From an uncultured Flavobacteriales bacterium (GTDB lineage: Bacteria > Bacteroidota > Bacteroidia > Flavobacteriales_D > Sanyastnellaceae), in NCBI GenBank assembly GCA_938085105.1, contig CALKGK010000011.1:1-33033 (forward strand): a DNA stretch of 33,033 bases, in the 5' to 3' direction. The first letter of the stretch is position 1. The number at the start of each line of letters is the position of its first letter. The notes under the pieces are model-generated. The model was not told where the DNA came from. It did no database searches and was given only the letters and a program-made list of their open reading frames with translations. The position numbers and the translations under genes are program-made. This document shows positions 5,753-11,152 of the stretch, in pieces.

Positions 5753-5875
5753 GTTCCTTTTGAGCGTCTTTGACTTGGTTCTCAGTAGCTTCAAAAATTC
5801 ATCTTTCAACTCACCACTGATTCACCTCCATTTTTCACTCGCAATCCCCCATTTATGGTATTTTTTTCACCTTTA

Positions 5876-5892
5876 TTTAGAAATGTTCTAAA
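5876..5892. promoter_or_regulatory. PerR/Fur-like palindrome, candidate suf operator
   Basis: TTTAGAA-ATG-TTCTAAA is a perfect inverted repeat with 7-bp arms and a 3-nt spacer. It ends 9 nt before the suf -7 box (5902) and so covers the place where a -33 element would be. Its inner 15 bases agree with the PerR box form TTAGAATnATTCTAA at every outer-arm position (6 + 6) and differ only in the three central bases. The location suggests repression of the SUF operon by steric blocking. The identity of the regulator (PerR/Fur or Rrf2/IscR type) is inference. Confidence 0.6.
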
Positions 5893-5901
5893 CAATATCG
5901 G

Positions 5902-5909
5902 TAGTTTTG
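5902..5909 (+). promoter_or_regulatory. -7 box of the suf operon promoter
   Basis: TAGTTTTG matches TAnnTTTG exactly and is followed by CA, as in many promoters of this phylum. Transcription would start near 5914, leaving a leader of about 40 nt before sufA at 5953. No canonical -33 TTG is present; the palindrome at 5876-5892 takes that place. Confidence 0.65.
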
Positions 5910-5952
5910 CAACATCTTAGCAACTCATTTGTTGAACAGACTGAAGAAGACG

Positions 5953-6291: not shown

Positions 6292-7737
6292 ATGGCATAC
6301 GAAGGAGACGATTTATTAGAAGAAGTAACGGGGAAAGAATACGAGTTTGGATTTACCACAAACATTGAGTCTGACAAAGCCCCTCCAGGACTGAACGAAG
6401 ACATCATTCGTTTGATCTCAAGTAAAAAGAACGAACCGGAATGGTTGCTCGAATGGAGGCTCGATGCCTTTGCGAAATGGAGCGAAATGCAGGAACCAGA
6501 GTGGGCTCACGTGAACTACGAAAAACCAGATTTTCAGTCCATTTCTTACTATTCCGCCCCAAAAAAGAAACCTCAGCTCGACAGTTTGGACGATCTTGAT
6601 CCGGAGATGAGAGCCACTATGGACAAATTGGGAATCAGCATCGAAGAACAGAAACGCCTTTCGGGTGTAGCTGTCGATTTTGTGATGGATTCAGTATCCG
6701 TGGCCACTTCTTTCAAAAAGAAATTGGGCGAACTCGGCATCATCTTCTGCTCCATGAGTGAAGCGGTGCAAGAACACCCAGAATTGGTGAAGAAGTACTT
6801 GGGAACAGTCGTACCCAAACAAGATAACTTTTACGCAGCCTTGAATTCTGCCGTGTTTACAGATGGCTCTTTCTGCTATATCCCAAAAGGAGTGCGCTGC
6901 CCAATGGAATTGTCTACCTACTTCCGAATCAACGAATCGGGAACGGGTCAGTTCGAACGTACCTTGGTGGTTGCAGACAAAGGAAGCTACGTGAGCTACC
7001 TCGAAGGATGTACCGCTCCTCAACGAGACGAAAATCAACTTCACGCAGCAGTAGTGGAATTGATTGCTTTGGACGAAGCCGAAATCAAATACTCTACCGT
7101 TCAAAACTGGTATCCTGGTGATAAAAACGGAGCTGGAGGTGTATTCAACTTCGTAACGAAAAGAGGTTTGTGCGAAACCCGCTCAAAAATCTCTTGGACA
7201 CAAGTAGAAACTGGATCTGCAGTAACATGGAAATACCCAAGCTGCATATTGAAAGGAGACCACAGCATTGGAGAATTTTACTCCGTAGCGGTAACCAATA
7301 ACTACCAACAAGCAGATACGGGAACGAAGATGATTCACATTGGTAAAAACACCAATTCGACCATCATCTCCAAAGGAATTAGCGCTGGGAAAAGCCAGAA
7401 CAGCTACCGCGGATTGGTGAGCATCAATGCTTCTGCCAAAAACGCGCGAAACTTCTCTCAATGCGACTCCCTGCTCATGACCGATCGTTGTGGAGCACAC
7501 ACTTTCCCATACATTGAGGTGAACAACTCCAGTGCAAAAGTGGAGCACGAAGCCACCACCTCGAAAATTGGTGAAGACCAAATCTTCTATTGTTTGCAGC
7601 GCGGACTTAATGAAGAACAAGCCATTAGCCTTATCGTGAACGGTTATGCCAAGGACGTACTGAACAAGTTACCCATGGAATTTGCCGTAGAAGCCCAAAA
7701 ACTCCTCGCTATCTCTCTCGAAGGAAGCGTAGGATAA
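6292..7737 (+). CDS. sufB: Fe-S cluster assembly scaffold protein SufB
   Basis: 481 residues, full length for SufB, the scaffold subunit of the cytoplasmic SufBC2D complex on which clusters are built. The C-terminal region carries the conserved block around [17 protein letters not shown]. By spacing, C391 corresponds to E. coli C405 and H419/E420 (VEHEATTSK) to H433/E434, the residues implicated in cluster building. The N-terminal region [14 protein letters not shown] is the usual SufB/SufD helical motif. An AAAGGAA element lies 5 nt before the ATG, a rather good Shine-Dalgarno for this phylum. It is followed by a 53-nt gap with a stable hairpin before sufC. Confidence 0.98.
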
Positions 7738-11144: not shown

Positions 11145-11152
11145 TACCTTTG
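11145..11152 (+). promoter_or_regulatory. Internal -7 box immediately before sufE
   Basis: TACCTTTG matches TAnnTTTG exactly and ends only 4 nt before the sufE ATG (11157). The 57-nt sufS-sufE gap is otherwise AT-rich (11108-11120). If active, it would start transcription at or next to the ATG, giving a leaderless sufE-sufT-dxr message. No clear -33 TTG is at the right distance. Confidence 0.45.

Follow-up and report, generated by a model that had tools for sequence, protein, structure and literature searches.

The stretch of DNA analysed here, referred to below as the window, comprises 33,033 nucleotides from an uncultured Flavobacteriales bacterium. Its forward strand carries a run of suf genes, namely sufA for an A-type Fe-S carrier (PF01521; 5953-6279), sufB (6292-7737; named from a reading of the protein sequence), sufC for an ABC ATPase (PF00005; 7752-8552), sufD (PF01458; 8565-9839), sufS for a cysteine desulfurase (PF00266; 9855-11099; named by position and family), sufE (PF02657; 11157-11585) and a gene for a SufT-like FeS_assembly_P protein (PF01883; 11585-11905). 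The last gene of the run is dxr (PF02670; 11930-13096), which is possibly co-transcribed with the suf genes. One TAnnTTTG sequence, TACCTTTG, lies directly 5' of sufE (11145-11152) and might serve as an internal promoter for sufE-sufT-dxr; TAnnTTTG occurs 18 times in the window, against 21.7 expected by chance, and so is not in excess.

Upstream of sufA, positions 5876-5892 form a perfect 7-3-7 inverted repeat, TTTAGAAATGTTCTAAA (TTTAGAA-ATG-TTCTAAA), and an exact -7 element of the TAnnTTTG type, TAGTTTTG, follows on the forward strand (5902-5909), 9 nt past the end of the palindrome. A first-pass annotation of the sequence had described this arrangement and had taken the palindrome to replace the -33 element, and both descriptions are borne out: TTTG is absent from the -33 position, and within the intergenic region (5753-5952) it is found only at 5759, 5769, 5906 and 5928. 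Because the flavobacterial -7 box spans -12 to -5 (PMC9723704), suf transcription is predicted to start at about 5914, which would place the palindrome at approximately -38 to -22, with its centre at about -30. The palindrome begins 77 nt before the sufA ATG (5953), within the distance of about 100 bp used as a criterion for flavobacterial Fur boxes. Based on the alignment of 88 suf sites, the element is slightly longer than had been described earlier, about 23 bp, with the consensus (T/C)TATTTAGA-N5-TCTAAATA(A/G); judged by the conservation of suf sites in relatives, the extended Fur-box palindrome of the window, TTATTTAGAAATGTTCTAAACAA, occupies 5873-5895 (core, 5876-5892; no strand assigned). 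The palindrome does not agree with CAAC-N6-GTTG, the consensus of SufR operators. This consensus is matched by CAACTCATTTGTTG at 5919-5932, downstream of the -7 box; the match is probably due to chance, CAAC-N6-GTTG being present in only two of the 96 suf regions and absent from that of the sister species.

Motif counts within the genome are uninformative. With up to one mismatch allowed, the window contains a single copy of the core, TTTAGA-N5-TCTAAA (shuffle mean, 0.08), and the suf site is the single exact copy of the full 7-3-7 form in the genome; weaker 7-3-7 copies show no genome-wide excess (33 versus 28 for the control at up to two mismatches), and neither does the shorter core (181 versus 227). 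The strong evidence is comparative. Among the genomes of 120 relatives, sufB was recognized in 112, of which 13 were excluded (partial gene or contig end); of the 99 loci taken, three (L023, L085 and L100) had no usable DNA upstream of sufA. In the remaining 96 regions, our own included, the core was present at 10 or more of its 12 positions in 88, at 11 or more in 70 and at all 12 in 42, compared with 4, 0 and 0 for the reversed-pattern control and with means of 3.85, 0.25 and 0 in order-1 resampled sequence. Conservation upstream of suf in relatives, on whose absence the proposal of the first-pass annotation was to be given up, is thus evident. A partly overlapping set of titled assemblies, mostly Flavobacteriales MAGs and including Salibacter, Brumimicrobium and Lentiprolixibacter, gave a similar picture, with at least 10/12 in 76 and 12/12 in 36 of the 79 usable suf regions from the best 80 of 552 loci.

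Variant suf operators were recognized in L036 and L059 (genus g3) and in L060, L065 and L082 (g11), with the forms TTTGGA-N5-TCCAAA, in which both arms are changed, and TCTGGA-N5-TCCAAA. The variant TTTGGA-N5-TCCAAA(C/T)A, which stands at suf in part of g3, is present in 32 of the 120 genomes. A specificity switch in the Fur protein of g3 is unsupported, the VSRATLYNT stretch being kept in all seven g3 orthologues. Degraded sites also occur in Fur-bearing members of g3, g5 and g11.

The probable Fur box at suf is a new member of a kind already known. In Riemerella anatipestifer the Fur box is a 19-mer, ATTTAGAATTATTCTAAAT, and purified Fur bound box-carrying promoters, of which four were chosen, in EMSA (PMC5609570); at rhuB the binding was Mn2+-dependent, with a Kd of 4.3 nM (PMC10986502). 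By hand comparison, the site in the window agrees with the 19-mer at all 12 core positions and at 16 of 19 overall, and it has the form of the TTTAGAAT-N-ATTCTAAA-type palindrome by which flavobacterial Fur boxes are recognized. A later Riemerella paper quotes a classical GATAAT-type sequence, GATAATGATAATCATTATC, as a putative box (PMC7976709). In the sections of the Riemerella study drawn on here, the fur mutant had higher levels of HmuY, HmuR, a FecA-like receptor and imelysin, boxes adjoin uptake receptors and the imelysin and HmuY genes are fur-responsive, and the uptake genes were still iron-responsive in the mutant (PMC5609570). SufA, SufB and SufD were up at low iron in the wild type and the fur mutant alike, and sdh, aconitase and nuoG were down at low iron in both strains (PMC5609570); as this response of suf and sdh persists without fur, another iron sensor acts at least there. 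The 11 boxes in Table 5 of the same study include none at suf, sdh or nqr, and the third value given for the alternative-complex-III-like RAYM_00020 is -2.23, which by column order refers to the mutant versus the wild type at low iron (PMC5609570).

Our genome contains one PF01475 (Fur) gene, with a score of 79.8 bits (cut-off, 23.1) and no box upstream (best match, 8/12). An alignment was made for 51 of the 110 Fur-bearing genomes, comprising the 30 best-scoring ones, 20 chosen by genus and our own. The recognition helix contains Tyr65-Asn66, with Asn66 in 51/51 orthologues. Bases are read by Tyr56 and Arg57 in MgFur (PMC4506495), and this Arg of the classical Fur helix is replaced here by Asn66. 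The metal ligands H42, E90, H98 and H100 are found in all 51 orthologues and E111 in 50, and together they reproduce, as mapped by hand from the alignment, the regulatory site of classical Fur (MgFur H33, E81, H88, H90 and E101). A CxxC motif in the C-terminal part is absent from 49 of the 51, our own included. In B. subtilis, the residue at position 61 of the DNA-reading helix distinguishes the two box types, Asn going with PerR boxes and Arg with Fur boxes, and peroxide sensitivity depends on whether position 104 holds Asp or Glu (PMC8638851). The helix Asn of PerR and Irr is therefore present in this protein, whereas the Asp of PerR at the 104 position and the metal-site Asp of Irr are not; our own Fur shares the absence of CxxC with Irr. 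In short, on its residue pattern this Fur is a hybrid, with the PerR/Irr-type Asn for DNA reading and the Fur-type Glu in the metal site. Such a hybrid is predicted to sense iron in the manner of Fur and to recognize boxes resembling those of PerR and Irr, the kind observed here, and the Glu makes iron, rather than peroxide, the likely signal.

The distribution of the operator partly follows that of Fur. The exact form, TTTAGA-N5-TCTAAATA, was matched in 77 of the 120 relatives (reversed pattern, 0-2 per strand and genome), being present in 76 of the 110 genomes with Fur and in one of the 10 without it; the Fisher value (p = 0.00039) takes no account of relatedness between genomes, and most of the Fur-less genomes belong to two genera, g5 and g11. 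Five of the 110 have only weak or partial Fur matches, all five with the operator; p becomes 0.00057 when they are dropped, 0.013 when the three paralogue-only genomes among them are counted as Fur-less and 0.047 when all five are. For DtxR, the operator was present in 55/90 genomes with the family and in 22/30 without (p = 0.28), and for Rrf2 in 30/51 and 47/69, respectively (p = 0.34). A site of at least 10/12 at nqrA was found in 32 of 62 Fur-bearing genomes versus none of eight Fur-less ones. A suf site of 11/12 persists in three g5 genomes that lack Fur (L038, L043 and L048), and the other three Fur-less genomes examined have sites of 9-10/12, so that none shows 12/12. The pattern of co-occurrence favours Fur as the binder and falls short of proof. 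PF01475 and the exact operator are both unmatched in G005, G024, G048 and G063 (g5) and in G050, G058, G065 and G072 (g11).

The same box lies at other genes, whose names here are readings of protein sequences and not database assignments. Among the matches listed, sites besides suf are found at nqrA, the cytochrome subunit gene of alternative complex III, sdhC, nuoA, sufE, sufS and hemA, at imelysin/DUF4856 lipoproteins, HmuY and a type of gene neighbouring it and FecA-like receptors, and at an iron ABC binding protein, a hydrogenase small subunit and a ZIP transporter; several others have no telling neighbour or lie inside a reading frame. Among the sites of our own genome that are exact or fit at 11/12 positions, those whose neighbour could be read lie at suf, nqrA (L003), actA (L002) and a DUF4856 gene (L116); its other one-mismatch sites fall within or close to genes of unrelated function. 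In the phylum as a whole, 142 of 395 genomes have TTATTTAGA-N5-TCTAAA; at 10 of the 30 loci read, the motif separates hemA from a divergent AraC-like gene, and at some of the rest it precedes sufS, sufB, heme oxygenase or imelysin.

The position of the box relative to the promoter differs between these genes. At suf, a TAnnTTTG is found from -45 to +35 relative to the site start in 71 of the 88 cases, and all such boxes in those 71 regions fall at -27 to -13 or at +17 to +33; the site thus overlies one of two regions, that of the start or that of -33, and either placement is compatible with repression. This geometry is not uniform, since a box lies farther on than +35 in 14 of the 88 regions (at 45-46 in ten, at 55 in three and at 121 in one), some with a nearer box as well and some without. 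Partial suf sites with TAnnTTTG 55 nt downstream, near the activator spacing of sdhC, were noted in L094, L097 and L098 of family f13, in which suf may be regulated differently. The nqrA regions were chosen regardless of the motif: 75 of the 120 genomes were matched, 73 with a long gene, and 70 regions were used (G083, G101 and G113 were left out). In these, 28 of the 32 sites of at least 10/12 have TAnnTTTG at 63, 64 or 73-75, as against none of the 38 low-scoring regions; L301 contains a phased 11/12 site and L315 has none. Loci selected for carrying the motif gave TAnnTTTG at 63-64 or 74-75 in 11/11 actA sites and at 52 in 3/3 sdhC sites. Because related genomes share their spacing, none of these counts represents independent events. 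The steps of about 11 bp correspond to one turn of DNA, as expected of an activator facing the polymerase, and suggest that boxes 52, 63-64 and 73-75 bp upstream of TAnnTTTG act as activator sites. Activator-like sites upstream of other genes were not foreseen in the first-pass annotation, and this phased layout is the newer part of the present findings; we could not find any description of the box at suf, or of phased upstream sites, in the open-licence literature searched.

A second palindrome, ATACC-N-GGTATTG followed by TAnnTTTG after 19-20 bases, was found at nine of 14 iron/heme-uptake loci (L116, L133, L165, L166, L185, L151, L175, L172 and L127), and with that spacing at none of 183 other loci (70 nqr, 14 act/sdh and 99 suf); the uptake loci are themselves carriers of the Fur box, and the search required a spacing of 26-27 nt between palindrome and TAnnTTTG. 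In the nine loci the Fur box lies at -29/-30 or +43 from GGTATTG. ATACC-N-GGTATTG looks like a candidate activator site. An activator bound near -33 and countered by Fur would explain why the uptake genes of the Riemerella fur mutant are iron-responsive. A Fur box stands between hemA and a divergent AraC-type gene in L449-L452, L455, L457, L459, L460, L465 and L466, and also in L170 and L177; the AraC-type protein beside hemA, so named from a reading of its sequence, is a candidate regulator of the second palindrome. In the window, an imperfect relative of this palindrome, AATCCCCCATTTATGGTATT, is recognized by sequence likeness at 5843-5862 (no strand assigned), 45 nt from the -7 box versus 26-27 nt at the iron-uptake promoters, and its role is doubtful.

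The palindrome before suf is very probably a docking site for Fur. On the conservation, the match to an EMSA-tested box, the co-occurrence with Fur, the promoter geometry and the residue pattern, we consider it likely that the palindrome is the operator of the only Fur of this bacterium, within a regulon that represses suf and the uptake genes and activates nqrA, alternative complex III and sdhC; from that evidence we infer that this particular Fur binds, in which direction each gene is regulated and that iron is the signal. Iron-loaded Fur would bind the suf palindrome (about -38 to -22) and block RNA polymerase, so that plentiful iron would keep the suf operon low and scarcity would release it. 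At the uptake genes (imelysin/DUF4856, HmuY and FecA-like receptors) the box is placed where binding should repress, and from the upstream boxes of nqrA, alternative complex III and sdhC (centres at about -56, -67 or -78) iron-loaded Fur should activate. A comparable division is known from Caulobacter crescentus, in which Fur loaded with iron increases the expression of sdh, nuo and cytochrome genes and represses uptake (PMC3751524, PMC6120978). This situation differs from that of the Bacteroidota in phylum, box, promoter and the spacing phased by 11 bp, and activator geometry does not appear in the sections of the Riemerella papers drawn on here (PMC5609570, PMC10986502, PMC7976709). We lean slightly toward the wider view that, in many Bacteroidota, one hybrid Fur is a direct two-way switch of iron economy, repressing suf and iron/heme uptake from boxes over the promoter and directly activating Na+-NQR, alternative complex III and succinate dehydrogenase from boxes spaced by helical turns, and is joined at the uptake genes by some activator acting at ATACC-N-GGTATTG, with no need for a RyhB-like RNA.

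PerR boxes of the B. subtilis type have the consensus TTATAAT-N-ATTATAA, and the window site, when read as the 7-1-7 repeat TTAGAAA-T-GTTCTAA, resembles it but differs at three or four positions, including the fourth of each arm. The first-pass annotation had fitted the palindrome to the PerR type, and had tied suf to peroxide or metal sensing. A peroxide-sensing Fur-family protein that derepresses suf on oxidation is nevertheless unlikely: although the Asn61-type residue occurs in all 51 orthologues and a peroxiredoxin gene carries the box in one genome (L161), Glu rather than Asp occupies the residue that governs peroxide sensitivity in 50 of 51 (by the rule in PMC8638851), our genome has a single Fur-family gene, and the readable neighbours of the box are mostly genes for iron, heme, Fe-S clusters and respiration. 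What stands of the PerR fit is a probable Fur-family operator that is nearer to PerR and Irr boxes than to the classical Fur box and is not SufR-like, with a regulator that is unlikely to be PerR; likewise, the tie to metal is retained, through the position expected of a Fur-family repressor, and the tie to peroxide is unsupported in view of the Glu and the mostly iron-type neighbours. The Irr box, or ICE, of alphaproteobacteria has the consensus TTTAGAA-N3-TTCTAAA, to which the palindrome is equal, and hemA is among the box neighbours. Irr likewise belongs to the Fur family, has Asn in its DNA-reading helix and lacks CxxC, and some suf genes change in a Rhodobacter irr mutant (PMC3413700, PMC10374146). 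An Irr-like logic, in which the metal-free protein represses at iron scarcity, would have the opposite sign and is quite unlikely, since Irr, which acts under iron depletion, has Asp where this Fur has Glu (PMC3413700, PMC10374146), and the related, metal-activated Fur of Riemerella needed Mn2+ to bind promoters and acts as a repressor of uptake genes (PMC10986502, PMC7976709). Moreover, our Fur reached 29.5 and 27.7 bits with the two NCBIfam Irr models, far under their cut-offs of 150 and 170, though it passes no NCBIfam cut-off at all.

Regulators of the Rrf2 and DtxR families control Fe-S or iron genes elsewhere, and our genome encodes a single Rrf2 protein, next to a gene read as cysH, and has one PF01325 hit. 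Binding of the palindrome by an Rrf2 (IscR/RirA-like) or DtxR-type protein would agree with the presence of DtxR in the Fur-less g5 and g11 genomes that have suf sites of 9-11/12, but it is very unlikely because the operator is often present where Rrf2 (47 of 69 genomes) or DtxR (22 of 30) is missing, including perfect suf sites in g4 and g20. A conserved core-promoter or RNA feature that is no protein operator would suit those genomes in which the site overlaps the -33 region. In other genomes, however, the palindrome lies 13-27 nt downstream of the start of the -7 box, and at other genes it lies 52-75 nt upstream; as no single promoter element or leader explains a palindrome on both sides of the -7 box, this possibility is extremely improbable.

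Iron control in Bacteroidota is poorly understood, and the single Fur of Flavobacterium psychrophilum was not deletable, according to the portions of the reports considered (PMC9478572, PMC9331221). If the palindrome is the operator of Fur, the conserved box and its spacing code allow a prediction, for each respiratory or Fe-S gene, of whether Fur should repress or activate it, and offer a directly testable alternative to RNA-based iron sparing. The switchboard appears to lower iron-saving genes and to raise iron-hungry respiratory genes at plentiful iron, and the combination of Asn and Glu in one protein suggests that DNA specificity and metal chemistry mix independently in the Fur family. 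Our genome also contains a third exact TTTAGA-N5-TCTAAA (L106; G000:C43:82366-82382), which lies 272-371 bp from the nearest listed reading frames.
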